Shown here: in pieces, positions 34,801-63,354 of the stretch
How the letters are laid out: the number at the start of each line of letters is the position of its first letter
Numbering within the stretch: position 1 is the stretch's first letter
Source of the DNA: Ischnura elegans
Lineage: Eukaryota; Arthropoda; Insecta; Odonata; Coenagrionidae
NCBI RefSeq assembly: GCF_921293095.1
Contig: NC_060247.1
Location: 48,209,111 to 48,273,110 of the forward strand
Length of the DNA: 64,000 nucleotides
Direction: 5' to 3'
The notes under the pieces: generated by a model
What the model saw: only the letters and a program-made list of their open reading frames with translations
Told to the model about the DNA's origin: nothing
Database searches by the model: none
Translations under genes and position numbers: made by a program

Positions 34801-37800
34801 AAGTAAATTGATTTCAAATTTTTAGATGAGATTGATCATTATTTTGTATAATATAAATATGCTTTATTGAAAGATGATTGTTGAATGTAATGGGCGATTT
34901 GTTTTGGCTTGAAAATGGTTTAATTTGAATAGTCTATGATAAAAAATGTGCTCCTTCCCTTGATATCTTCTATTACATTAAGTCCTCAACATACAAACAA
35001 GATGTAATCATTGTTCGTAAGTTGAAAAACTTTAGGAAGGCATTGGGAAGTGTAGTTATCCTGTTGAATGCAGCACTTCATAACAATTTTGCTTAAACTC
35101 ATGATCGTTTTAAACTGATCTAACTTTATATAAATAATAACCCAAAAAAAATCAATATGTTTTAATGCATCTTTGCACTATTTTTTCACCATGGTTGTGT
35201 TTGTCTGCAGTGTTTCTCACCAGTATTTCAGACATGTAAATTTTGTCTTTGAATTTTTAATTTTTCATGCACACAAGCCTCGGAACTGCTTTCACTCATA
35301 AATAATTAATCTAGTCATAACTTGATCCTTTCGCAATGTTAATATCACATACAGGAGGCCAAAAACCTGGGAGTAGATACTTTATTTATGATTTTATTAC
35401 CTTTGGCAATTTATTATGTAGTCTCTGGTCGGTAGAAAAAGTTGGAAGTAAATATAAAAAGCTTTTAGTAAATAAATATGGGCTTGTTTCACAAAATTGA
35501 AGATGTTCTGTACAGCCCTGGAAAACCGGTCTGCAGACTCTGATTTTGTCACCAATTGTTGGATAGAGCTAGAAATTTTCTGGTGCTGATTTGTTTTTAG
35601 GGATGGTTTGTGCTAAGATGAATGCACTAGGCATGTGGATCAGTTTTTGGAGGAAAGTATTTGATTAGTAGCAATAGGCCCTTAATACGTAATATAAAAC
35701 TGTTTTTCTCATTCTATTTTTGCAACCTTGAAATCATAAATGAGAAATTTCTTGTGGTAGTCCTGTGCATCCATCCTCTTTTGCGATGAAATAGATTTCA
35801 AAAACATTATCTGTGCAATGACTATGCTATAGTGTAATTACCTTAGCCCATAAAATTTTTTCTTCCTTGGCACTAGTGTGCTCCCCCCCACACGAAAAAA
35901 AGGGGCTTCCACCATTTTTCTCTCTGTTTACTTCCCCTGCATCTGCCTCTCTCCCTGTCCCTCTCCTACCTAACTTCACTGGCATTTTTTCATTCCCTTG
36001 TGAGGCCCTTTGGTGGATATGATAGCAAATAGTCCACAAATCTCGTGACCTTTGTAATTAAAATTGACTGAAAATGAAAGGAAGTCATTCACACATATTG
36101 TGAAGCCATTCTGCAAGATTCAATGGAACATTTAAAATGACTTTATGGTAAGTGCAAAGGAGAGGAAAAAGGATGAATAGGGAAAATTGACTGCCAATTT
36201 ATCTTAAAGTGATCCTCTTTCAAAATATTTCCACCCATTGAAATTTAAGTCTAAATTTTCAATAATGTGTGACTACTACACTCTTAAGTTCAGTGAGTAC
36301 TTCGCCTTCCTTTGTGAGTTTCAACGAAATCGGTGACCAAACACCCATCCGAAAAGCAGTGCAACATTAATTTACCCAATATTAGAAATTGCTACTAGAG
36401 AAAATAACTGGGAAGTGTGGGATAACGCCTCATGTGGCTTGGCAATTGACAAGTTTGGATTGATTTTTGTTGCTTTTGTGATTTGTTTACTTTTCTTCAA
36501 ATACTCATTTTCCATTTTTCTTTTTAGGGCTATGATGGCGAGGAAAAAGCATACATTGCCACTCAAGGCCCTCTTCCTCATACAGTGCAAGATTTTTGGG
36601 AGATGGTGCTGCAGGAGCATGTCCCTGCCATTGTTATGATCACCAAGTTGAAAGAAAAGGGCCGACCTAAATGTGAGAATTATCTTCCTGGTGAAGAGGG
36701 CGAAGGAGAGAAGGGATCCACAGTCACTCATGGAGATATAACAATTATTGTTCGGAATGTCTTCCTCAAGGCTGGCTACACTGTGAGGGAACTCACTCTC
36801 CAGGTTAGCTGCTGAGATTTGGTTTTTGTGTTGCCCTTCATAAAATTAGAGATAGGCCAGTGATTTGAAGGCTCGATCCAAAACTGGAATCAAGGGATTA
36901 CTAGTCTCTGTTCTATGAGTAGAGAGGCCCGGGATTCCAGGATTCATTTCTACTATGGATTCTGTTTTATGTTGAATGTGTGGATTAGAGATTCTAATGT
37001 ATATGGATAAGTGGAATCAAATTTTTGTGAACTGCTGTAATAGATTCAGTTTGATAATTTTTATACAGATAAAAATTGTATGTACAGACTCCGTGAAGCA
37101 TTTCCTTATGTTTTGTACAGAAGTTATCTGTTCCAATTAATCTGTTATCTGTTCTGTTTTTTTTTAATGATCACTTACTCACTTCTTCTAGATAATTCTG
37201 TGATAATAGTTTTTATCTTACATAAAATGATTTAAGAGGAAGCTTGTGATTAATAATTAAAATTATCTCCAGGGATGAATTTTTGCTACTGTTGCATAAT
37301 CAAAGAAAAATAGCTTGTCATTATAACGGATTCAAAATTTTTCCTCTCATTTTGAAGCCTTTGCTCAGCTCTCATATCATTCCTTGATATCATTGCACAT
37401 TCTTATTCGAATCAGTTAGGATAGAAAAGTTATTTTTGACTTCAATATTTCATTTCTTGCTTTATACTTATATTTCAGAGGGGAGAGGAGACCTATGAAA
37501 CATTGCATTTTTGGTACACGGGATGGCCCGACCATCGAACACCACCTAGTGCAAAGCCGCTGGTGGCTATGGCTCTCGAAGTTGAAACTGCTCGCCATAA
37601 TAGTGATGGAAGCCCAAAGGGACCAGTAGTGGTGCACTGTAGTGCTGGAATTGGACGCACAGGGTGTTTCATAGCTCTGTCAGTCGGAATGAGACAGCTA
37701 GTGGCTGATGGAAATGTTGACGTGCTTGGCACTGTATGTGCCATGCGATATGATAGGTATGTGTACCACTGAAATCAGGAGTTGTGTGTTCAGGTGTAAA

Positions 37801-44540: not shown

Positions 44541-47238
44541 CTGAAAAGAAAAGCACATTACTTTACTTGCCTGTGTGTGATAGAAGATTAGAGAAATTGG
44601 ATGATTGGTTGGATGTGGAATTTTGGAGATTAGGATAGAAATTTAATGATTAGGTTAAGTGAAGAGGATATTAAATTTAGAGAACATTCTGTTTATGATT
44701 AGAGATGTGGTCAAAGGAAATGGAAGGATATGATAAGTGTTTGACCACAAGTGAGGAAGATTTACAGGGAAAGAGTTCATACCTATGTTATGGTTTGTAA
44801 TGTGTGCCTTTTTACCTATTCTCCAATGTAATTACCTTGGCAAAGCATTTTCTCCTCTTACATGTGATCAGATAAGCCCCTTCTAATATAAGATACACTT
44901 GCCTACTAACTTATGCTATGGCCTATAATGTAAGTATTTAAGATTATTCTATCGAAACAATTATTTTGAAAGTCTTAGGGGAAGGTAGGTAAATTTCAAA
45001 TTTAATGTAAAGAATTCTTTAATAAAATGATAAAAATTAACCCTTTCGAGACGATGGAGTTCTGCTCTTAGCACGACTGCTGGATTGAGCTCCAAAAGAC
45101 TCTTCTGTCCCCTGGTACCTTGCATTTTTGCTGGACATTCGTTAAGAAGGGTCTCGCAGATAATCACACGCTCTCAGCTCCAACATTTTTTGACCACTCC
45201 CAGCGGGGACCTCGCATTATGTCAGACTCCAAGGTTAGTTGGGCACCCTCCTTTCCGGGTTTATGACCCTACTGGTGGCATTGGTTCACGATCAATCATG
45301 CTTTGCTTATATGAATTAGCTGTATAGATAGATATTGGTTTCATGTAAAGTGCAAACTTTGAATTGAATCCCTTGTTTTTTTCTGAGAATTGTCAAATTT
45401 TGAACAAAGCTCTACTGCCTATATTAACGGATTTAATGCATCAAGAATTTCCATGTTGATGTTTATACTGAAATAGAGATATAAGTTAATATTTATCATA
45501 GAATTTTGTCGAAAAATTATAAACGCTGCTCAAAGGATAAAGAATTCAATTTTCAGTTTATATTTTTCGAGAAAGGAACAAATATTAATTTCGAAAGCCG
45601 ACTGAACGTACAATTGTATGATCGTGGTCCCCTACCAGAAAGAGGGGTAATGTAAGACAAGGGGTCCGGGTAGCTGCTCCCAGAATTTGAGGATATGGAT
45701 TTTTAAAGTCCTGCTTTATTAGGTCCCGAAACTAAGACTTCTAAACCTGCGACCGTCATAAAAGGGGGAGAAGCAAGAAAACGTATATTTTTGGCATTTG
45801 TTCGCCTGCATTGGAAAATCTTCGGCAAAAAAATTTGTGGCTTTCGTCTCTCGGGTCAAGAAAGGTCCTGCCACATATTTTCGTAATAAGTAGCAAAAGG
45901 ATGAATTACAATAGGTATTATAGTCAAACCTTGATAAGTGAGAGTTCAAGGGACCAGCATTTTTTTTTCTCTCATAGAGGTTTCCCCCAAGTTTCTCATT
46001 TACAAATGTTCCGGAATGACCTCTCTCACTTATGGATGTAAAATTAATAAATTAGGGGGAGTAGAGTGCGAGGGGGAGACAATTATACTTATTATGTATG
46101 TAATTATGTATAACTTCATTTACATTGTTTATGTAAAGAAATCAGTTGATGCCTTTTGAGATTCTCTAGTGGTATTATCAATATGTACATATGTTTTTGA
46201 TCTCATTTCTCATGCCAAAAATAAATTTTTACTTATTTTTGTAAACCATTCTACAACAGCACGTCTCTATTCACTGGATTTGAAGATGCAGCAATATAAA
46301 CTTTGAAAGAAATTTTCCTCGAAAAAATATCTCTGCCTCTCAATGTTAACTTCCGTTCAAGTGAATGCTAGGAATTGATAAAGAGTCATGAAGAATGTGT
46401 TCCATTCAAGTCAAAGTTAACTGAAATATATACAAATCTCAACTTTAAAGTTTCTTTTCTCAACTTTTAGGCTTCCCATTTTTCGCCGTAAAATGCATCA
46501 CATTGAGTCAGATAGTGTGCACATATTTCACCATATCTGAAGTCAGCCAAAAAATTTCTCACTTACAGAGGTTCCTATATTCCCTCTTGTAGAGGCTTTC
46601 AAGGGTAAAAATGACAGTACCTGGCAATGAATCTCACTAAAAGAGGTTTCTCACTCGTCCAGTTCTCACTGATAGAGGTTTGACTGTATTTCAAGGAAGG
46701 TTCTTGAAGAGGAAAGAGCCTGGTGAATTTCTCCATTTACCTCATTAAGATGACCCGAGGCTACTGCAATAAATGATAGCCAATCAACTTCATTTCCATC
46801 CTGGCATCCACTTAATTGTAGCATTTCTTTGAGCTTTTGGCGATCCAAACATAATCCATCCCAGATCTCTTGGAGTTTACAGACTTTAGCAGAGCATTCT
46901 TTACCAATCTATGGGAAGATAATAGACTCAATTAGGGTTGTGATAAAATTGCTTAGTTAAATTTGAAATTTCCTCTTTGGACTAACCTGTTGTATAAGTA
47001 CTTTAAGGAATCCAGGCGATAATCCTGACTCTGTTGTGATTTGAGGATATTCTAAGCGCTCTTTAACTGGAGGTCTTTCTCCTTTCGCCAGAGCTCGAAA
47101 ATAAGCAGCTGACCATCTTAAGAGATCATAGGGCTGAGTGCGAATTGCAGCCTTTGTGTATTGCTTCAAAATACCAGGAAAGGTTGGAGGCACAAATATT
47201 TGCTCAGCACAGTATATATCTGGTGGATCTAAAGGCAT
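44274..47238 (-). CDS. ROPN1L: Ropporin-1-like (ROPN1L/RSP11-type) protein, whole gene
   Basis: Three phase-0 coding exons (46987-47238, 46741-46908, 44274-44540) give 84 + 56 + 88 = 228 residues, close to the 230 of human ROPN1L. The N-terminus has the RIIa dimerisation/docking domain (about residues 10-50: PPTFPGILKQYTKAAIRTQP then DLLRWSAAYFRAL), which in this family replaces the PKA regulatory subunit in binding A-kinase anchoring proteins. The protein sits in the flagellar/ciliary radial spoke and sperm fibrous sheath. Later blocks (WLSFIAVASGHL, LCELLTEEPEGGCASIP) also match the family. In an insect it is likely expressed in sperm and ciliated sensory neurons. A perfect X-box lies upstream. 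Intron 2 (44541-46740) contains a Tc1/mariner-like element. Confidence 0.9.
45921..46686. mobile_element. Tc1/mariner-like non-autonomous element
   Basis: The ends TAGTCAAACCTTGATAAGTG and, inverted, CAGTCAAACCTCTATCAGTG are flanked by TA (45919-45920 and 46687-46688). Variants of CTCAYTTATAGAGGTTT recur inside, near both ends. The CAGTCAAACCTC termini and TA target fit Tc1/mariner MITEs of insects. It has no transposase. Its right end is 54 bp from the exon 2 splice donor of the ropporin-like gene. Confidence 0.7.
46741..46908 (-). CDS. ROPN1L: Ropporin-like coding exon 2
   Basis: Acceptor CCCATAG and donor GAG/GTAAAT. It encodes IGKECSAKVCKLQEIWDGLC through VDWLSFIAVASGHLNE, aligned with the IKWINFLALGCSML region of the human protein. 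Confidence 0.88.
46987..47238 (-). CDS. ROPN1L: Ropporin-like coding exon 1
   Basis: Starts MPLDPPDIYCAEQIFVPP and includes the whole RIIa domain. It ends LKVLIQQ at a donor CAG/GTTAGT. The exon appears to begin upstream of the ATG at an acceptor just above 47278. Confidence 0.92.
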
Positions 47239-47278: not shown

Positions 47279-47550
47279 CTGAAAACCTGAAGGAAAAAAT
47301 GAAGAATTAAAAAAAAGCCCATATAAAGTGTGTTAATAAATTAGGAGATAGCTGATTACAGCATGCTTTATTTGAACTCATAAGTAAAGAAGAAGTATGT
47401 GGTAAAGGAACTAGTCACGTATGAAATGCATTTTGAGCTTTATATCATATCTTACATTTCTACAGTAGTACATTTAATGTATCCACTCATAATTCATGAA
47501 CCATTCAGTTCACTATAATTAATGCAACGTGTAGGGCAAGTTTGACTTAC
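47279..47550 (-). other. Predicted 5' UTR intron of the ropporin-like gene
   Basis: On the minus strand a donor AAC/GTAAGTC is at 47550 and a strong acceptor, a pyrimidine tract ending GTTTTCAG, is just above 47278. This would put the transcription start between about 47560 and 47770, next to the X-box. Inference from splice signals only. Confidence 0.45.
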
Positions 47551-47779
47551 GTTGGTGAGCACTCTTCCTATTATTTTGTGTTTATAGTAGCTGCTTTATA
47601 AAAAATAACTATTCGTTTACCTAGAAATGGAATATCTAAATATTGATGGAATTAGTCGGTAGCATTAGCTCAGTTCATCATAGCCATTTCAAATAAGCGT
47701 CCTTGAAAGGATTATAATTCTTACACATGGCGCGGCCAGGAACGACTGATTTGTTGTGTTTGCCTGAGCCCGGGAAATG

Positions 47780-47793
47780 GTAACCATGGTAAC
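47780..47793. promoter_or_regulatory. Perfect RFX X-box palindrome
   Basis: GTAACCATGGTAAC fits the X-box consensus GTNRCC-N(0-3)-RGYAAC on both strands. It is 542 bp upstream of the ropporin-like ATG and within about 230 bp of the likely transcription start. RFX factors drive ciliary and axonemal genes in animals, which matches the gene's role. Confidence 0.7.
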
Positions 47794-47999
47794 GATTGGA
47801 ACTGAATTTGCTTAGTGCTGCCATCAGGCGAGGGTATAGTGAAATACATCAACTCACGTGACCAAATTTTGAAGATAGGTGAGGCGGGTGAAGTAATAAG
47901 TGAAGTAGCAAGTATTTTGCGAGGTAACGTGTGTCATACTTGTAAGCAGCGAAATATAAGATGAACTTACGTGGATACTCTTGATGGGATTTCCCATGG

Positions 48000-48272
48000 A
48001 CTTCTTAGGCGAGATTTGTACATGGCAATCTGCATTCGGTAAGTAGTCATTCGAATTTGGGGGCGTGTATTTCTCGACGAAATTTTGCTTAGTTTAACTT
48101 GCAATTACTGGATGAATGTCGTGAGGTTTTCGCCGATCTGAATGAAAATTATTTTTTACATGTATTAAATGGAGATTATAATAGATGATTTATTTTACGA
48201 TGTTTTAAAAGATATGAAAGTTTGATTTACTGTTCTTCATTTGTTAGGAAAACGTGCCTACAGAATATTCAA
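48000..48272. other. Intergenic, no gene seen
   Basis: Upstream of the ropporin-like gene. No divergent gene, ORF or element end was found here. Confidence 0.35.
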
Positions 48273-48336
48273 TATTAAACTGTTAAATTATGTTACATTT
48301 ACTATAGTAAATGTAACATAATTTAACAGTTTAATA
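48273..48336. repeat. Perfect 64-bp palindrome with no spacer
   Basis: The arms 48273-48304 and 48305-48336 are exact reverse complements of 32 bp each, centred on ACTA/TAGT. There is no loop. It is AT-rich and encodes nothing. Confidence 0.97.
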
Positions 48337-48552
48337 ATTTTACAATTATAATATCGGCTACATGAGGTTCGAATTTAATGTCGTCGAACTGTCCCGAGTC
48401 GACTCTAATTATATTTAGACAGCATGATAAATGATCGTTTATAACTATGAAAGGTGTATCAAATCAGGATTATGTAGCTATAATTCTCACTTGAAATATC
48501 TAATATCGACTAGCCAGTGCGTGCCGTAGAGATTTGAATATTTTCTTATTAA

Positions 48553-48761
48553 TGCCGTTTTACACGGGCATGTCAATGCGCATACTAGAACTGAAAACAT
48601 GTTGAAATTGCGAAAATGCGAGCTTGGAATTAGGAGAGGCTACTATCTGCTGTCTCGCATGCATTCTCGCAATTCACCGCTTTACACGACGCAATGTCGA
48701 TCGCGCCTTCGTACATACGTCAGATTGCCCAATGACGTGCCGTGTCCCGTGTACAACGGCC
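48553..48761. mobile_element. Harbinger-like MITE, copy 2 (TSD TAA)
   Basis: TAA flanks both sides (48550-48552 and 48762-48764). Ends TGCCGTTTTACACGGGCA and, inverted, GGCCGTTGTACACGGGAC. It matches copy 1 at 40190-40423 in reverse order (for example GCGAATTGC and the ACGTACGTC-like block). The 3-bp TAA target is that of PIF/Harbinger. Confidence 0.75.
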
Positions 48762-49284
48762 TAAGGATTTTTCGCTATTTTATGAGGAGAAGTTGGAAAC
48801 GGATATGCTCTATACCTGTGATTGGGTAATGGATTTGAAACGATTTGAGGTTTTCTTTCAGGATTTTCATGAGACCTCCCCAGGATTGCCCATCCTTCCT
48901 TATTATGATGGCACATCTAGTATAAACCAATAATCCGTGGGCAGTGGCGGATTCAGGGGGGTTCACACACCCCTCCCCAATTAAAAAAATTATTAGTTGA
49001 AAAGTTTTTGTATCCTTGTGGAGGAGTAGAGGAGCAAATGCATGGCTGCAAGGCCCAGACGTGATGGAAATTTGAGTTGTATTTATCGTATATCGTAGCA
49101 TTGCCTGCAAAACATTTTAGTCGTGGGATTATCCCTCTCTCCCGATGAGTATTTCATACTCCCCGCACCCAGGTCATGACCTCCCCAAATATGATGCTGA
49201 TGCTGTCTGCGGCCCCTCTTGATTGCTACAATGAACTAATTGGCAAAAAATACGCAAAAGCCATTTTCTTGATCTACATAAATG

Positions 49285-51644
49285 CAGTGGCGGTTTGCCC
49301 ATAAGGACTCTCGGACGCCGCCCCTCCCAAATATTTGAAAAAGTAAAAAAAATAAATATTCATTAATTTATAATTATACATCTGATTAATCAAAGCGTTT
49401 TTTCAGTTCCATGCATCGAAAGTGTTGGAAAAACACGAAAAGAAATAGCGCGAGAAGTTCGTATTTGTAGCCGTGGGGCGCTGGCCAGAACGTCCCAATC
49501 CATCCCCATGCAGTTATATGGAGAGTGGTAGTGGTGGGGGCCGCTGGTGCTATGACGCGTCTAACGTTGTGTCTTATGGAAGTCTTGGGACGTCGTCCGA
49601 AAATGCGCAGAGCGACGAGTGAGTTGACATCGCTGCGCAGGCCGGCGGGCGTATAATCTGGCGTCTACTTGGTGCTGCCACAGAAAAGGGACCTACGGAA
49701 TCAGAATGGTCACTGTACTGGGTGTAGTTATACGATTTTAATTTTTAATTACTGGTAGGTATTGCTACAGTAAATAAATTATCCCATTATGCTTGCGTTT
49801 TTTGGTGTTTGAATTCCGGAACACATAAAATCCAACCAGTTAAAGGCCGTATTGACGAAGGAAAACTATTCTCGAGTATTTGACACAGTTCTGTTATGAT
49901 TACGAATTTCAAGAACCTTGGGGAAACTAATATTATAATATTTAGGCCTTAACAATGTATTCATATCTTCCCGAAGATTAGAAATACGGTACCTATTTTT
50001 CAGATAAATTTATCAAAAGACCTGCAGTATTAGGAAAAATCAGTTAACATTCCCAACTGATTTATAATTTAAGAAATAGTTGCGTGCGTGATAGGGTGAA
50101 GGATTAAATATGATTTAAATCGTTAAGCGCGACTTTAAATAGAGTCATTCAATTAATGTCATGAAGTGCCGCGTACAATGCACCTTTTGTGTGTAGGTTC
50201 ATCATTTTTCTAGCCGTCCTTGTTGTATTAGTTCATGTTCACCTAATTCCTCGGCGGCAGAGCGGTAGCTGTCTGACGGAAAATGCCCACTTGGGTCTGA
50301 TTTAAGTGGCCTCGAAGAGTTCATATCAATGCGGAAATCCTTACAGCTCCCATCTGTGGCTCAGTCGAGTCGTCTTCTTTTACGATCTAGAACTTATTTT
50401 CTATTATATCATGGCAATGATCTCGAAGACACGGTTATTCCAAATGCGACCCGTTGGCGTCTCGTGTGTTTACCACATATGAATCTTAGACTCAAGGAGA
50501 TAGTCCGTGACGTCCTTTGTTTGCTTGAATGCCTTTGCTGACCTTAAATCCGTCCCTCAGCTGAATCAGCATTAGTGGACCACGACTTCTATCTCCCTTG
50601 AGTCGTCCTTATAGTAACGGCAAGACTCTCGGAAAGAACGGAGTGAAATGAGTTCAGACATCATTTTCGAGGAGTTAATTGTGCGTAATTACCGATTAAG
50701 AAGTTTCTTAGTGCTGTGTGTACATTCAAGAAGACAATTTTGAATTAATCAACAGTGCTCGTTTTTTTTAAGGGTAATATAGGGAAAAATTGTCCCAATT
50801 CTGTGTCCAGGCACCTTGTTCTTTTTGGTCGTATTTTTCGTCGGCCTATTTTGTGTCGTCCCTTGTTTATTTATAGACTAGTGCCCTTGCCATGTGTTCA
50901 ATCAGAAAGAAATTGTTGTCCAGCGCTGATTTCAACGAACGTGTAATTGATCACTTTGCTGGACAAAATGAAAGAAGAATGGACTTTCTCAATATAACTA
51001 AAGGCCTGTGAGTATTTCATATATTGTTAAAAATGTGTGAGAAATGTTTAATTGTTGATTTTAAATCATACTGTATTCAAGAAGCAACGCGAACACCGCC
51101 ATCAAAGTTTACATCTGCAATAGCAAAGCGCGCGCATTCTAGTAATGTTTGTTGCCTAGTGGAAGTCAGTGACACTCTCCTCCCTCCTCAGGTGTTACAA
51201 GTGTCATTGCTACCTAAATCATTGCAAATGTTGTATAGATTTGACAAATAACGCATTATGATTGCAAAACGAACTACATAAGTGTATTGCGGGCATATCC
51301 GCACGAAGAATGTAGACGCTAAAACCTAAAGTTACGTATTTTCGCTTGTATTTGCAAAATATCGCAGCAAATATATTTTTATTCTTCAAGATCATTGATC
51401 AGTATCATCGAGAGTCCAGACTAAGCCGATCCGTATGACCGAGAGTCTACTGCATTTAGTATTTGTTAATCAAGCTTTATTAGGGAAACTAGGTATTTTT
51501 GTTGAAAAAAACGGAACGTATGGCATCACAGAATTTAATTCCTAGATTGCCGTAAAAACTTAATAAAATACACGAAATATTATAAAATTATGACCCCCCG
51601 GTGGAGTGCGCCCCCCCTAGCATTTGACTCACGAGCCGCCACTG
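49285..51644. mobile_element. 2.36-kb non-autonomous hAT element (TSD CATAAATG)
   Basis: CATAAATG is at 49277-49284 and 51645-51652. Ends CAGTGGCGG and, inverted, CAGTGGCGGCTCGTGAG. The longest ORFs are 60-75 codons with no transposase similarity. A GC-rich patch is at 49480-49690. It belongs to the CAGTGGCGG group of MITEs here but is much longer. A lone left end of the same group (CAGTGGCGGATTCAGGGGGG) is at 48941, without a mate. Confidence 0.85.
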
Positions 51645-51652
51645 CATAAATG

Positions 51653-53416
51653 TTTGCAACATATTGTGGAAGACAAATGCTGTAGACTTACTCGGTAGTT
51701 TTCCCTAGGTTGAGTTACAAAGTTCATGAAGTTGACAAAACGGCTAATTTTATGGTGCGCGGAGTCGCTTATTGCACTGGTGTGTCTACATTTTTCATTT
51801 TTTCTTAAAAAATACATTGGAATTAAGAATAAAATTTTCTTTGAAATGACGTATTATCATTATTTTAGCATGCGCACAAGCTTAGATATACATTTTAAAA
51901 GTACAGCGGCATATCATTTTGACACCGACAGTATGCTGCAGATGAGTATAATGTTGGTGAAACTATTATTGGATTGTGTCATTAACACTTTGAATATAGG
52001 GCATATGATTTCATTGTCCATTTCTGCAATGGCATAGTCTACCAAGAAAAATGTCATCGTCTTATTTTACGTTCATAATTATGTTTATTTGACATTAACA
52101 ATGATTCGCGGTGTAAGCATTTGTTTGGATTTCATCTAAAAGTAGTCCGTTAGCCTTTCAAATCAAGTACGTAACATAATATTTGGTCGGAATGACGCTC
52201 AAAACAGGCTCAGGATGGCTGTTTATCCCGTTCCTCCGAAAGAACAGAATCGGATTCAGGATCCGTTGTCCCCTCAACCTTTGGTGTGGGCCCACTGATT
52301 GGGAGGGAGGTGGGAATAAAATACCGCCCTTGGTTGCAGGGGTCTGGTAACGGATTCCTTGTTGGCTGGCAAAATATGGCAAGGACGATTATTTGGGGAT
52401 TTCAGGCCCCGAAATTTTTCGCTGTTTACTCTGCCCCTCCAAGGAAGGAGACGCCGCGGCCTATGATGATGATTGTGGAGTTTTGATTTGAATTTCAAAG
52501 CTAAATGAGGTGTAGGATTAGCTTGATTATGGTGAATCTCGGCAAAAAATTCACTATTCGATTTTTGAGGAATTTTCTCAAATTTGAGGCCCTGCATATT
52601 GTTAGAAATAAATAACCTATAAAAAATATGCTTCATAACATTCGCTAATATATGCACTAACAACTTACGTCAACTAATAAATGCACAAACAACTATGCAA
52701 AGTTTCAACTTCCGTACTCATTAAATTATTTTTGAGTATCAATTGGCCAGGAAAGGTTGGAGAATCCCGCGTCTTGATTATGGCGACGCAAGCTACCATT
52801 TGCGAAGAAGAATCATCTTGAAGAGAATTATCCATCGATTTTTCTCTAGGTAGGGATCCTGGTAAATTCTTCGGTGATCCCTCTTAAAGGAGGCGGAAAC
52901 AAATTTTCGTGCTCTGAATATTTTCCCCTCACATTCGAATGAAAATATTCTCGTAATTTGCTCTTATAATGAAAATTTATTTTAAGCCACGATTATGATT
53001 GAATATTTGTCGGGTTTCAGACTGGGTCGTACACGTGACTCGTCCGTCATTTTATATCCAAATTGGTCAATTTTAAGGACCTAGGTCATAAAAAAAATAT
53101 TTTAATTGTTAATATGATAGATTATTTTTTATGTGGTTAAGACATGGGGGAAATGGGACAAGACTCAATGAACAACTTTCTCCACAAACTTGGTGTCTGG
53201 ATCTGCTCCCGTTGAGAAATATACTCTCTCATGTCTTTTCATACCATTACACTCGTAGTTACCCTGACGGAGATTGAGCCACCGACCCTTTCGAGTATAC
53301 CTATGATCCATTTTTTTAATATACGCGTCTCTACCGTTCGCATTTCGTCTATTTTTGCCACGAATTTCTCATTTACAACTTTCCTTATCATCATGATAAT
53401 TTCCCGGTATATAGGG
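51653..53416. other. Intergenic, no gene seen
   Basis: AT-rich, with short ORFs only (for example 51726-52037 plus and 52274-52663 minus), neither of which shows a recognisable domain or bias. Confidence 0.35.
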
Positions 53417-53709
53417 CTGTAACGGATACTGAAAAAAACTCAAAGGGGGGGGGGGTGCGCAAAAGATATTTTGAGCTACCTATACTTTTATAGCAATGAA
53501 AAATAATCAAGTTAGATGCAAAGTTTAAGGTAGTTTTATTTAAACTGATTATATGCATATACAAGACAATGCTATGGTTTAAAAAAGCTAAAATTGTGGT
53601 TCTGGAATGTTCGGCAATGCGGTCAGCCCCGCAATGGGATGGGGGAGGGGGGGGGGGGAGCGGATACAAATGGGGGGCCTCCTTCGCCCCCCATATCTAT
53701 CCGCCACTG
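53417..53709. mobile_element. hAT MITE, CAGTGGCGG group
   Basis: Flanks ATATAGGG (53409-53416) and ATATAGAG (53710-53717) match at 7 of 8. The ends are CTGTAACGGATAC and, inverted, CAGTGGCGGATAGATATGG. G-runs are present at both ends. Confidence 0.65.
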
Positions 53710-54348
53710 ATATAGAGTCGATTATTGTTAGCGTTGGTTTGCATCACAAGTATTAAAATTTTACGCACGAGATCATTCTGAGTCAGGTATCCGAATTTAA
53801 GATATGTGTCAATTTTGATTAAGGGCAATTGAATACACCCTGATGTTTTCAGGATGATAGCGTAAGTTTTTAACAAGATATTGGTCGCCATGATAGATCA
53901 CTCGAGTTGAATTGGTGTGTCCTCTTAACTTATGTTATCATAGGTAACTAATGTTCTCATTGGATTCTTAAGCGTAACATCGTCGGTTCCTTCCATGAAA
54001 TCTCATCCGTTTGGGAAGGTAAATAGAGGAAACTGTTAAAGAAATATAAAATTTTGGCTTATATATCCATTTCCTATTTTTCCTCATTTATATATGAAAT
54101 CATCCCGGAATCCCAAAAGCAGTGCTGGATTAGGTGAAATAATAGGTTTCATTTGTATTAAAGGCCGCTATTTTTTGATGCTACAATGCTCGAAAGGTTT
54201 TATAACCCCTCTTCTACCATCCATCCGTCTTAGGATTTCATTAAAACATAGACTGACTAATTCAAGAGTTTACTCGAATATTGTTAAGAGGTTGATCTTC
54301 TTACAGTTTGGGTAAGGTGGCCATTTCCTTGTAATGTCCGAATCGGAT

Positions 54349-55016
54349 AATAGGGTAGTTTCCTTCATCAAAGAAAACAAAAGGCATTGATGGCGATTCG
54401 TTACCCACCATTAGTGTATTCGTAATACACAAATTATTTGGTTTTTGAAATACCGGTTTAGACGAATGGCAAGGGTCAAATTTTATCCTCATTTGAAAAA
54501 GGCCAGATTGGCGCCCATGCGATTGCACTCCACGTGACGTCACAGGGACCTAGTTTCTACACGAGAGGATAGGAGTTATGCATCGTCAGAGGCTACCAAT
54601 GCATGCATGAGGCACAGAGCTCAGGGAAATATGTCTTAATAATCACCTATTAAAACTGGCTAAGGTCGGAAAGTTTTCTTCGCTTGATAAGGTATTAATA
54701 AACCTTTTTTAAGCCATGCGCTACCAGACAGGAAGGTACTCAGCTACCCGTTAGCATCCTGCGTCCTATCAGCGCTCAGAGCCTCGATCAAGGTCACCTA
54801 CCAGGTGGGAGGGGAAACCAGAAATGCGTCGCACGGACTTTTTCCCTTCATTCCTACTTACGCGTCGCGTTTTCGCGCGCTTGAAATTTTTCACTTTTCA
54901 TTTGATCGCGAAAAATAGATATCGTCATTTAAAAATCTAAAAGCGTGAAATACGTACTCCAGGAGTAATAATCTTTCGATTTAGGCAATAAAAAAATAAT
55001 AGGAAACCACCCTATT
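54349..55016. mobile_element. 668-bp non-autonomous DNA element, copy 2 (TSD GGAT)
   Basis: GGAT is at 54345-54348 and 55017-55020. The length is identical to copy 1 and the sequence is collinear with it, with scattered substitutions. It ends AGGAAACCACCCTATT. Confidence 0.88.
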
Positions 55017-55020
55017 GGAT

Positions 55021-57000
55021 TAAAATAATCGAGTAATAATCGGATTCAGAATTTGAATTTTTAATTCTATCTAAAATCACTTGTTAGTGTGTTCCGATTT
55101 TGCCTCGAGTCTGAAAATAATTAAATTTGCCTCTAGAGCACCGTTGCGAATACTATTCGTCGTTATCATTATGTAATATTGTGAGGAATAAAGGAATTAG
55201 AGAGAAAGCAACGGTGAAAATTGTCGTTGCAACCAGGTTGCTAATAAGGGGTTCGTGTTAGTGGATATCTACTTAATGTATATCGTGAGAGAGTAGTTAA
55301 ATAGGTGCCTAAGGTACTTGTCAGGAGCGTAAATTAGGGTTTCCCGTAATTTAATATAGTTCGTATTATGCATGCGTGAATAATGTAATCACAATTATGC
55401 TATACTATTAAAATTGTAATATTTTTCTCTGTGGAAAGTTCTCCCCAAACATGAACTTGCGCCCGGCTTTGAGAAGGTTTACCGGTGGGAAATCTACATT
55501 TCTTTTCAAAGTCATTCCAATAATGGTTTAGCATTTTTTAGTTTTTAATTATTTTATTATTGTGAACCCCGAGAATCATCGTCATTATTCCTAGGACTGT
55601 AGTTTGGTGACCGCCTGTGTGTGTTATGATAGTTGATACTAAGTTGATACAAAACGTAATCTGGGTTATATGTGTAACTCTATATGTTGTGCCCATGTTT
55701 CCTCATGAATTTACCCTGACCGACGATATGGTAACTAGTTGGTCTGCGTAGTAGGAGACAAAGAGGACCTGACCCAGTGCAAAACCCGAGAAATCTTTCC
55801 TTCAATTGTTCGCCGAGAAAAAACCAAACATTATATTAGTTGGTCTGGGTATTTCAATTGAAGCGAAATGATGAATTCCGTACTTAGGTTCCACGCACTA
55901 TGCAAGTTACGCATTTTCATGATTCAGTTACAAAAATTAGGTCCAGGCGTTAAAAAAATAGCGATGGATTTTCTCCCTAGTTATTTCTCAGAAGAGAGTT
56001 CTCGGATCGTTCATTCCGGAACGAATTGTATTATTTCGTGTAATTGTATCTTAAATGACGAAACGCCCAAAATTAGTGCTATTGTTTTTTTACGTTTCTT
56101 ATATTTCCGTAAATGAGTACGTATCATCGCCGCTAGACGTGCAAATCTCATTTTGTCGGGCTGTCATTGAAATTTTTTACTCTCACCCCATTATTACCGC
56201 ATCTAAGTTATGAACAATAGAAAATGATTTATTCATAATTAATATTTTATTTCGTGTAGAGTATAAAGTAACCGTTTTAAGGTAAAAATCGAGCCTCTGG
56301 AAAAATAACTTCCCTTTTTGTTATTTTTCTCTGGCAATGGCTTCGACATAGGATGTCATCCTCTGGATATTGATGTCTCATTCATACTAATGGTTTGCCT
56401 TAGCTATCAGTTGAGTATGGGATGGACCGAGTGAAGTTTAATTAGCAGTTTTATTTCGTTATTTATTATATCATTTCCCATCCTATTAATATCTTGGAAG
56501 CTCACGACAAGACGTAATTGGCCTAACGTATCATACTGATCTCATTGAAGTCGCTTTTCCGAATACAGTAATGGTAGTAACAAGAAAAAAAATACAGTGA
56601 TGATTATCCGCACGTCGTTAAATACAAGCAATAAATCTTTTCTCTCGGCAGTAATAGTGGATCTTGAGTTTTTTAATTATAAAAACTTGCATAAGTTTTG
56701 TTCTACAAGAAGTATCGATGATGCGCCCTATTTTGTCCGTGAATGGCTTACATATATATCCTCGTAAATTGTATCCACGCTCTCAGTCTTTCCACCAGTG
56801 AGCTCGTATCTGGAAGCTTGGCTTATTTTTTCTTTCGGCATGCACTCGATAAAACGCCATTTTAGACAACCGCTCCTTCCTACCAAGGTGACCCTTGTTT
56901 CCGTGTTCGATTCGTAATGGAAAGAAACAAAACACAACGGAATCGAAGCTTATCCTCGCCTCTCATCAGTTTTAAGGGTCGGTAAAAGCGGCTTTTTTTC
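55021..57000. other. Intergenic, no gene seen
   Basis: AT-rich. No domain-bearing ORF, element end or RNA gene recognised. Confidence 0.35.
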
Positions 57001-57079
57001 TCTCTTTGTGCGGGACCGGTGGTCTTTCTCTCTCTCTCGTCGTTTTTCTCCGTCTTTAGGTAAAGGCCCGCATTACGCC

Positions 57080-57180
57080 CCAATCACGTGACCGGGGATT
57101 GATGCAACCTCCCCGCCCTCCTCCGCTTATATATCCTTCCGCGGTCGAAGTCGACGGGGAGTCGTCCCCCTTCGCGTGCC
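57080..57180. promoter_or_regulatory. GC-rich promoter-like patch with E-box and TATA
   Basis: In an AT-rich setting, about 57030-57480 is markedly GC-rich. It contains the E-box ATCACGTGAC (57083-57092) and CTTATATATCC (57125-57135), a TATA-like sequence. No coding exon that I recognise follows on either strand; the plus-strand ORF at 57176-57502 has no family resemblance. It may be the promoter and 5' UTR of a gene whose coding exons are outside the window. Confidence 0.3.
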
Positions 57181-58019
57181 GCTTGTCAACTCTTTGGCGA
57201 GCTGCGGAATGAGGGAGATGGGGTTTTATGGGGTGAGGGTCGCGGGGGTTTCGTGGGCGGGCCATGATAAAGGGAAGGATATTTTCCTGGCGGGGTTCGG
57301 GGCACTGGGGAGAAGATTCCGTGGGCTCACGCGAGTTGCGCAGTGTCGCCATATCTCAGCACGAGATCTCAGTGGGGAGGGAAAGCGGATGGGCAGGAGA
57401 AGATATGCCGGTCCTCTTCATTTCCCGGTAAAGGTTCCCCCACATTCCCTGAATGTGAATTTCGCCCCGCTCCCTAGATCCATAAAGCAAACCGCCCTCT
57501 AAGAGTCGCGTGAGCTGCTCGGAGCCTCCTGATGTATTCTTCAGATTAACGGACTTTTTAAGAATCCAGCACCGTCATCTCTGAATTATGAGTCTTGGAT
57601 TGGGGGACCTTTTTTTACCTTCCCCCACCAAGGAATCAATGCCATCTTTTCGCCTCTCAACCCCCCATATCCCATTCGGGGGAGGTCTTATTTCTTTCTT
57701 TATGTTTTCCTACCCAACAGTCCTCTCATCTTCGCTTATTTTTGTCGTCCATTAATGATTTTTTCCTGAGGGTCTGGGAAAAGATTAAATGGCATATCTA
57801 ACTCGTGGGTTCATCCAAGGTTTTAAAAGTTGTTTTTTTTTTTACCGTTATATGTGGAGTCATCCGTGCTAATGGATTAAGAAAAAAAAGTTGGCGAATT
57901 GCGGAGAAAAGAAGTGATTTTTAATGGAGGCAGCGATTTAGGACAAATTGCCCGAATATTCCCCTCTTCTACCGTACATTGTAAACGCAATAATATTTTA
58001 TCTCGTTGGGGTGGTAAGC

Positions 58020-58400
58020 AGAGAGTATTGATGAAAAATTTCTCGGGTTTCCCACCGGCTGTGGTATGGGGTTAGTTCTCCCAACGTTTCAACGGCTAAG
58101 TCTGCCATCGTCTTCATGGGTTTACTTTTTATGGTACTACTTTTTACGGTACCTACTCATTTATTTATTTATTCATATCCTTGGTTGCCCTTATTGTTGT
58201 GTGCGGATGTAGCGATTAATTCTGGCATTCTAGGCACTGCTTGGTAGGAAACCTTTATCTCTGTATATGCACTTCTCCTCCAGGCTAATTTCAATCGCCT
58301 CCTTTACAATTCGATCCCAATAGTCACTAGTGCGGCACAAAACCTTCGTACTTTTGAAGTCCATCCTATGACCGAGGTCCAAGCAAGCAGAGAGTATCTT
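58020..58400 (-). mobile_element. Penelope-like element 3' end fragment
   Basis: On the minus strand LDLGHRMDFKSTKVLCRTSD then YWDRIVKEAIEISLEE and NARINRYIRTQQ resemble the C-terminal tail that follows GIY-YIG in Penelope-like elements, where REAIEI and a Trp-led tail are typical. Here the Trp codon is TAG. Downstream, GAAGACGATGGCAGACTTAG and the following 100 bp resemble the usual 3' UTR of such elements. The reverse transcriptase is missing. Confidence 0.6.
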
Positions 58401-59058
58401 TCCTATCAATGGCGATTCAAATGGTGACCTCCCATTTGGCTTATGAACCATGATTTCAATGAAATAATAGATAAAATGAAGTGAATATAGTGATATAATC
58501 GGCGGATAAAGCGTAGCAGACGTTTTTGTTGGACACTTTTCGTCAGTTATTCTCAATCGCGGGCCGATTTAGGCAAGTAATTTGTATTTCAGTGTCCGAG
58601 GCAAGATATTTTCATCAACGTAAGCATGTCCTTCGCGGAAGAAAATATTCACGAATTCAAACCTCGGTTGAATGCTCAGAGTAGTGCTAGTTATGGTTTT
58701 CCGTGTCGAAGTCATACAATCCCTGGCTTTTGTCCTCGGCCGCGCCTGGCAGATGGCTCTCGCAGAGAGGTCGCTTTACTGATAGTGACGTGAGCAAGGT
58801 GTCAGAAAAAGATGAATAGTGGCAATGTGGCACTTATCTGTGGAGCATAGCTGCCAGAGAAAATGAAAAACAGACGAAGTTCTTCCGTTATTTGTGGCTA
58901 TTGGGATATTACTCGTACTACCGTAGGAAAAACAACTGCTACTGTAGTTCGCATTCTCGGCTGGTAGCAGGATCTTCCATCATTGAATTCATACGTTATT
59001 ATGGATTATTTTTTCTCCCGGATCTTGTTATGATTAAGGTTATTTCATCTATCTTCTA

Positions 59059-59560
59059 TCTATTCTATACATATAATAGAGGATGTCTGTTTGTCTGTCG
59101 GCTATGCATTTCAATACAACTGCACGGATTTCGACAAAAGTTGGTGCATCAGTGCACCATATGCTCTCAAACCCCGAAGTGCTACTTTTCATTGCGTCCG
59201 ATGCGTTCTTTGTGTCGTTTTCGCATTACTGTTTGTTTTGATACGTTATACCACTTCTCCGGTTGGACATCCTGCTGGTTAGGCTCACCTCTTAACACGC
59301 TCTAAAGGGACAAAAACAACTGATTCTTTGTTGTTACATATTTGTACCATCATCATACCTGCTTTGTTACTTTACCTAAAAACCTCTAAAAGCGGCTTAA
59401 TGAAACAGTTTCAATGACGTCAGTTACTGAAAAAGTAGGCTGCGACTTTTGCCTTTTTTCGTTTGAAAGTTATAAGAAAGTGGGTGTAGGAAGAAGGTTT
59501 TTTTCGTTATAACCCAATATCCAAGGCACATTTTTTAGCTGGGCATATGCAATTTTCTAG
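59059..59560 (+). mobile_element. Non-autonomous Helitron (502 bp)
   Basis: Starts TC after an A and ends TTTTCTAG before a T, as Helitrons do (insertion between A and T). The 5' part reads ATAATAGAGGATGTCTGTTT then GTCGGCTATGCATTTC and GCACGGATTTCGACAAAAGT, typical of insect Helitrons. No inverted repeats or target duplication. A 3' hairpin is weak (AGCTGGGCATATGC...). A related fragment is at 20120. Confidence 0.6.
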
Positions 59561-61818: not shown

Positions 61819-63354
61819 CTAAGATTGGTTTGACGCAGCTCTCCATTTCTCTCTCCTATCCGCTAATCTCTTCATAGCTACATATTTATTCTCTTTTACA
61901 TCCTTTATAACCTGTCCGATATAACTCATTCGGGGCCGTCCCTTGCCCTTTTTCCCTTCCACTTGTCCTTCAACGATTGTCTTCATCAGACCATCGTGCC
62001 TCAAAATGTGGCCAACTAAGTTGTCCCTTCTTCTGCTTAATGTTTCTAGGAGGCTTCTCTTTTCTCCTACTCTCCTTAGCACTTCATGGTTACTCACACG
62101 GTCAATCCATTTTATCTTCATCATTCTTCGGTAGCACCACATTTCGAATGCTTCCACTCTTGACTTCTCTGCTGCTGTCAACGTCCAAGCCTCGCTTCCA
62201 TAGAGAAACATACTCCATATGTAGCATCTGATGAATTGTTTCCTTACTTCTATGCTGGTATTTTCAGCTGTAAGAAGATTCTTCTTTTTGTAGAAAGCCC
62301 TCTTCGCCTGCGCTATTCTACTGTGTATTTCTTTCTTGCTCCGTCCATCGCAGGTAATTCGGCTTCCCAGGTAAGAGAACTCGTTCACATCTTGAAGCTT
62401 ATGCTTTCCTAGGTTGATGTTTGTTTTAGCCTCCTCTCTTTTACTGCAAACTAATATCTTAGTCTTCTTTTTGTTGATTTTCAGCTGATATCTGGCCATT
62501 GTCCTTTCCATGTTTGTCAACGTCTTCTTCAAATCCTTCTCTGTCTCGGCTATGACTGCTATGTCGTCAGCAAATCGCAGTATACTAATTTTTTCTCCGT
62601 GGATATTGACACCCGAAGCTTTCTGCTTGATTTCGTTGATGCCTTTCTCTATGTAAACATTAAAAATTAATGGGGAAAGCGCACAACCTTGTCTCACCCC
62701 TTTTCTTATTCTTGCTTCTGCACGGTTTGGTCCACATTTGATCACAGCTACTTGGTTTTTATACAAACTATGAATAATTCTACGATCATTGTAGAGTACG
62801 CCGATTTCTTTCAAAATTCTAAGGATTGAATTCCATTCCACGTTATCAAAGGCCTTCTCTAAATCGACAAATGCTATGAAGGTTGGTTTGTTTTTCTCCA
62901 TTCTCTTCTCTATGATCATCCTAAGAGCCAAAATTGCTTCCCTTGTGCCCCTGCTTTTCCTGAATCCGAATTGGTCCTCATCCAGGAATTCTTCTGCTCT
63001 TCGTTCAATTCTCCTGTAAATGATTCTTGTCAGAATCTTCGACGCATGTGTCGTCAGGCTTATGGTCCTAAATTCTTCGCACTTCTCAGCTCTCTCCTTT
63101 TTGGGTATGGGAATGATGATGTTCTTCTCGAAGTCACTAGGTAAATCTCCTGTTGAGTACATATCGCAGATAGTTTTATACAGTTGAGTTAAGACCTTTT
63201 CTCCTGCATTTTTTATTAACTCTGCTGGAATGTCATCTATTCCTGGGGCCTTATTCTTTCGCAGGTCTCTTACTGCAGCGTCGAATTCCGATCTTAAGAT
63301 GCTTGCTCCAATGTCATCCTTTTCAACTTCACTTTCCTCTACGAGAACTTTCGG
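61819..63354 (-). pseudogene. LINE reverse transcriptase frame
   Basis: After the frameshift the frame opens at about 63354 (VLVEESEVEKDDIG...). It runs through KAPGIDDIPAELI, SLTTHASKILTRII, FVDLEKAFDNVEW (motif A), RQGCALSPLIFNVYIE (motif B), RFADDIAV (catalytic FADD) and YLGSRIT to a stop (TAG) at 61821-61819. All catalytic motifs are present and there is no other stop over about 510 codons, so this copy is young. It needs the upstream frame to make a full protein. Confidence 0.85.

Follow-up and report, generated by a model that had tools for sequence, protein, structure and literature searches.

In mouse, spermiogenesis is under the control of RFX2, and the main text of PMC4498915 describes RFX2 motifs that cluster near transcription start sites in testis as well as reduced Rsph9 expression in the Rfx2 mutant. 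Drosophila Rfx is expressed in spermatids, but evidence that it turns on ciliary genes during spermiogenesis is lacking, according to PMC10556659. The fly homologue of the ropporin-1-like protein (ROPN1L), CG10014/RSP11, is confined to testis, and radial-spoke complexes are absent from the fly's 9+0 chordotonal cilia; the main text of that study does not contain the term “X-box” (PMC6367277). The sites to which RFX factors bind in flies were described in a screen for dRFX targets, whose main sections present RTNRCC N1-3 RGYAAC as less degenerate among its five motifs and GYTRYY N1-3 RRHRAC as a screen filter, with no requirement for it in binding (PMC2375033). The same study warns that finding an X-box ahead of an ATG in just one genome does not predict dependence on RFX, and it regards conservation of the site in another species as encouraging. 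A search of one literature collection found no paper that combines ROPN1L, RFX, and an X-box.

An X-box is an ordinary type of switch, and the one described here is of interest because it bears on whether RFX takes part in building the sperm tail of insects, a role for which flies have given no evidence. Damselflies are early-branching winged insects. In a 64-kb stretch of the damselfly genome (C2:48209111-48273110; hereafter, the window), we found the word GTAACCATGGTAAC upstream of a ROPN1L gene. Judging from its fit to the RFX consensus, its position, and its genome-wide counts, we suggest that it is probably a genuine RFX site within the gene's core promoter.

An X-box word upstream of a ropporin-1-like gene

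The word GTAACCATGGTAAC lies at positions 47780-47793 of the window on the plus strand (minus-strand reading, GTTACCATGGTTAC). Its two inverted 6-bp half-sites fit the X-box consensus GTNRCC N0-3 RGYAAC, to which it is the sole match within the window. It is also the window's sole match to RTNRCC N1-3 RGYAAC, and the locus resembles the dRFX targets of Drosophila (PMC2375033) in that such a word precedes the ATG of a gene from a ciliary family. The damselfly site differs from those targets in failing the stricter fly motif GYTRYY N1-3 RRHRAC; it fails RYYNYY N1-3 RRNRAC as well, in both cases because its third base is A (the stricter fly motif has T there). The left half-site is suboptimal. 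While the RFX-type word claimed by the initial annotation is therefore present on the plus strand and fits the consensus, the accompanying description as a perfect match and a full palindrome is too strong, because GTAACCATGGTAAC is an imperfect inverted repeat with two mismatches to its own reverse complement and departs from the stricter motifs at base 3.

The downstream gene is on the minus strand and consists of three coding exons, with the ATG at 47238 in the first (47238-46987; located by PDB and genome searches) and the stop in the third (46908-46741 and 44540-44274 for the second and third, respectively; located by genome search). Together they encode 228 residues. In a search of the PDB, exon 1 matched two ROPN1L chains (E = 3.8e−27 for 8j07 and E = 1.1e−25 for the other) and radial spoke protein 11 (E = 6.5e−10). 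These N-terminal matches to solved chains place the protein in the ropporin-1-like/RSP11 family and support the identity originally given to the gene. Two exon frames of the gene had no match in Pfam. A genome search for ROPN1L returned three matches, which are the gene's own three exons, and no second copy. The protein has its family and its radial-spoke role in common with Drosophila CG10014/RSP11 (PMC6367277).

The proximal edge of the X-box is 541 bp upstream of the ATG. Because a good donor (AAC/GTAAGT at 47550, the best-scoring one) and a pyrimidine-rich acceptor (AG at 47288-47287, or alternatively at 47280-47279) are found in this interval, the 5′ UTR intron on which the initial annotation made its distance argument conditional is likely. 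The predicted intron would extend over 47287-47550 and the predicted 5′ UTR exon over 47551-47747, both on the minus strand. An initiator-like TCAGTC at 47744-47749 (minus strand) suggests a start at about 47747, which would place the X-box 33 to 46 bp upstream of it; the initiator is weak evidence for this predicted start, because Inr-like words occur 1.77 times per kb on the minus strand. The region from 47501 to 48900 is CpG rich and promoter-like, with observed/expected ratios of approximately 0.8 to 1.8, versus 0.15 to 0.6 around coding exon 1. If the predicted start is right, the site would resemble the 14-bp inverted repeats that lie close to the starts of RFX2 targets in mouse testis (PMC4498915). 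The mouse system differs in being mammalian, and the main text of that study makes no mention of Ropn1.

RFX DNA-binding domains in the damselfly genome

Matches to the RFX DNA-binding domain were found at four places in the genome, on contigs C1, C12, C19 (two exons), and C7, the last of which has a stop inside the match. The C1 exon aligns with human RFX1 (1dp7) over 61 residues, 54 of which are identical (E = 4.3e−32). The genome therefore encodes an RFX1-type DNA-binding domain and, with it, a factor of the RFX1-3 type.

Excess of the X-box word across the genome

The initial annotation considered a chance match at this position unlikely, and we evaluated the role of chance by counts in the window and in the genome. 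In shuffled windows, the consensus with a 2-bp spacer (N2) has a mean of 0.11 matches, and 9 of 100 shuffles reach one match. With the window taken as a whole, such a match is only mildly unusual. A site as good as GTAACCATGGTAAC occurs in 2.5% of random 1.3-kb stretches (P = 0.025, under a home-made scheme whose weights were not fitted). It is the position of the word near an axonemal gene and its genome-wide excess that carry the weight of the case.

Across 1,722,721,009 bases (1.72 Gb; 110 contigs), the exact 14-mer is present in 52 copies, versus 13 copies of the reversed word. Markov models of orders 0 to 4, for which the window and the fetched loci supplied 312,850 bases of training sequence, predict 6.2 to 14.0 copies of the 14-mer and 10.9 to 16.4 of the reversed word. 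Given that the latter range includes the 13 copies counted, the models agree with the control, and the exact word is in approximately four- to eightfold excess. The wider class GTHRCCATGGYAAC has 690 strand matches (333 + 357), versus 60 (28 + 32) for its reverse, an 11.5-fold difference in which self-complementary sites were counted on both strands. These counts imply that most copies of the exact word exceed chance, and they would fit RFX sites.

To characterize the copies, we fetched all 52 exact sites, including the one in the window. A second full X-box is located within 150 bp of three of them (L013, L016, and L057), compared to one in the much longer 300- to 1,190-bp flanks of all 52. 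When the 52 sites are pooled, CpG content does not peak around them, and CpG content alone is therefore no promoter mark. A possible forkhead partner site 16 bp away from the word (GCAAACA, 47757-47763) was treated as chance, because words matching the forkhead motif RYMAAYA are not enriched around the exact sites (20 within 8 to 60 bp, or 3.7 per kb, versus 4.06 per kb at 150 to 1,190 bp).

Two of the copies are in open frames: one within that of a C2H2 zinc-finger gene (L024:4914-7349), which we take to be hunchback-like, and one within a 445-amino-acid frame that has no Pfam match (L053). Because of these, some copies are probably due to chance. We also scanned 128 open reading frames near 18 of the 52 copies and detected no ciliary Pfam family; matches included FAA_hydrolase and MFS_1. 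The scan took 128 of 265 selected frames: 22 of the 150 top-ranked ones, comprising most L024 frames and overlapping or low-complexity-looking frames, were left out, and the other 115 were outside the scan, as were 34 exact sites (33 loci of 2.4 kb and the window's own). Since short ciliary first exons may escape Pfam, the absence of a ciliary family is a weak negative. An earlier scan of 10 open reading frames from nine loci gave nothing above the cutoff. An exon at L014 was first taken for a known enzyme and then rejected, having no Pfam match and only a PDB match with E = 0.28.

Could GTAACCATGGTAAC then be a word without a role that merely happens to be upstream of an axonemal gene? We consider this unlikely. 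In its favor, shuffled windows have a mean of 0.11 matches to the N2 consensus, 6 to 14 of the 52 copies are expected anyway, some copies lie in open coding frames, and ciliary families are missing near the 18 sites scanned. Against it stand the genome-wide excess of both the exact word and its class and the location of the word, about 540 bp upstream of the start codon in a gene of an axonemal family.

X-boxes upstream of other axonemal and IFT genes

We examined eight further upstream pieces (11,708 bases in total), which belong to four tektin N-terminal exons, IFT57, two NYD-SP28 (DRC) genes, and an RSPH4A-like gene. RTNRCC N1-3 RGYAAC is present in two of the eight, while 0.11 sites are expected from a background rate of 3 in 305,650 bases (Poisson, P = 0.006). 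In the tektin gene on C5, the site is GTAGCCATGGTAAC (L061:1097-1110, C5:99982796), on the minus strand and 129 bp before the ATG (P = 0.022 per 1.3 kb, under the same home-made scheme with weights that were not fitted). The other is a consensus X-box, ATCACCTAGGTAAC (L071:873-886), which precedes the ATG of a DRC2-like gene by 377 bp; the home-made scheme also marks two further X-box-like words upstream (near positions 256 and 312 of L071). We presume that this gene is DRC2-like from its NYD-SP28 match and an apparent resemblance of the first exon, which had no match in the PDB.

With GTNRCC N0-3 RGYAAC, one of the eight pieces is positive (P = 0.07). Matches to the loosest motif are not in excess (12 found versus 14.4 expected). 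The consensus is absent from the pieces of the tektins on C9, C1, and C8, of IFT57, of the DRC gene on C8, and of the RSPH4A-like gene, although the home-made scheme marks a weaker X-box-like word before the C8 tektin. It is also absent from the 310 bp before the first ATG of IFT38/Cluap1, for which the stretch is only 431 bases long, so that 2 of 9 genes are positive and 7 of 9 negative. A CH_2-domain gene was not included in the set, and a genome search for IFT20 found no exon match. In four of the negative pieces (the C9 and C8 tektins, IFT57, and the DRC gene on C8), an acceptor adjoins the exon, and the promoter may therefore lie outside the piece; in the C1 tektin, an acceptor is found just before the ATG. 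This sorting by exon type was made after the result was seen. Given the small sample, we regard these stretches as modest support for RFX sites upstream of axonemal genes.

Direction of the transcript and origin of the word

RFX sites function in either orientation, and a real X-box at 47780-47793 could in principle drive a divergent transcript on the plus strand or serve a shared promoter in both directions. In keeping with such an arrangement, the CpG-rich stretch reaches about 48900 on the plus side, and a short ATG frame that ends at a GTAAGT donor can be read by eye near 47985-48038. We nevertheless find it quite unlikely, because the seven plus-strand frames tested from 47806 to 59305 all lack a Pfam match at E = 0.01 and no plus-strand gene was identified among them.

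It is extremely improbable that a mobile element carried in the 14-mer and made it common by being common itself: in a comparison among the fetched loci only, and not the whole genome, the centers of three of the 52 exact sites (L011, L032, and L047) match other loci, but those of the remaining 49, including the ROPN1L site, resemble none, and among 18 sites plus the window only the L011 center matched another locus, and it did so outside the site of that locus.

A putative route from RFX to the sperm axoneme

We return to the reading that GTAACCATGGTAAC is an RFX site of the ROPN1L promoter. On this reading, RFX control of ROPN1L is plausible, and the genome-wide counts strengthen it. Most likely, a winged-helix dimer of the RFX1/2/3 type would bind the X-box, with an initiator-type start near 47747 lying 30 to 50 bp downstream, and would raise transcription of ROPN1L. 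The minus-strand transcript would then be spliced at the 5′ UTR intron and yield the radial-spoke protein RSP11/ROPN1L. Because in the fly the homologue is restricted to testis and chordotonal cilia, which are 9+0, have no radial-spoke complexes, the target tissue in the damselfly is probably the testis, and the relevant cell probably the spermatid.

More tentatively, we conjecture that an RFX1-type factor might directly drive radial-spoke, tektin, and dynein-regulatory genes, and with them the damselfly sperm axoneme, as part of an ancestral animal program that Drosophila, in which Rfx is not known to act in spermiogenesis, would have lost or replaced. This broader scenario is possible, but we hold it as doubtful. 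X-boxes at the ROPN1L, tektin, and DRC2-like genes would make it testable whether RFX control of the sperm tail is ancestral in insects.

Other features of the window

Three further features of the window were recorded. Plus-strand exons at about 36500-37700, read by eye, point toward the ROPN1L gene, and from a motif in their translation we take them to encode a protein tyrosine phosphatase. A perfect 32-nt inverted repeat without a spacer, AT rich, is located at 48273-48336, about 0.5 kb to the plus side of the X-box. On the minus strand, at 61819-63354, a 511-amino-acid open frame contains a reverse transcriptase domain and is probably a retrotransposon.
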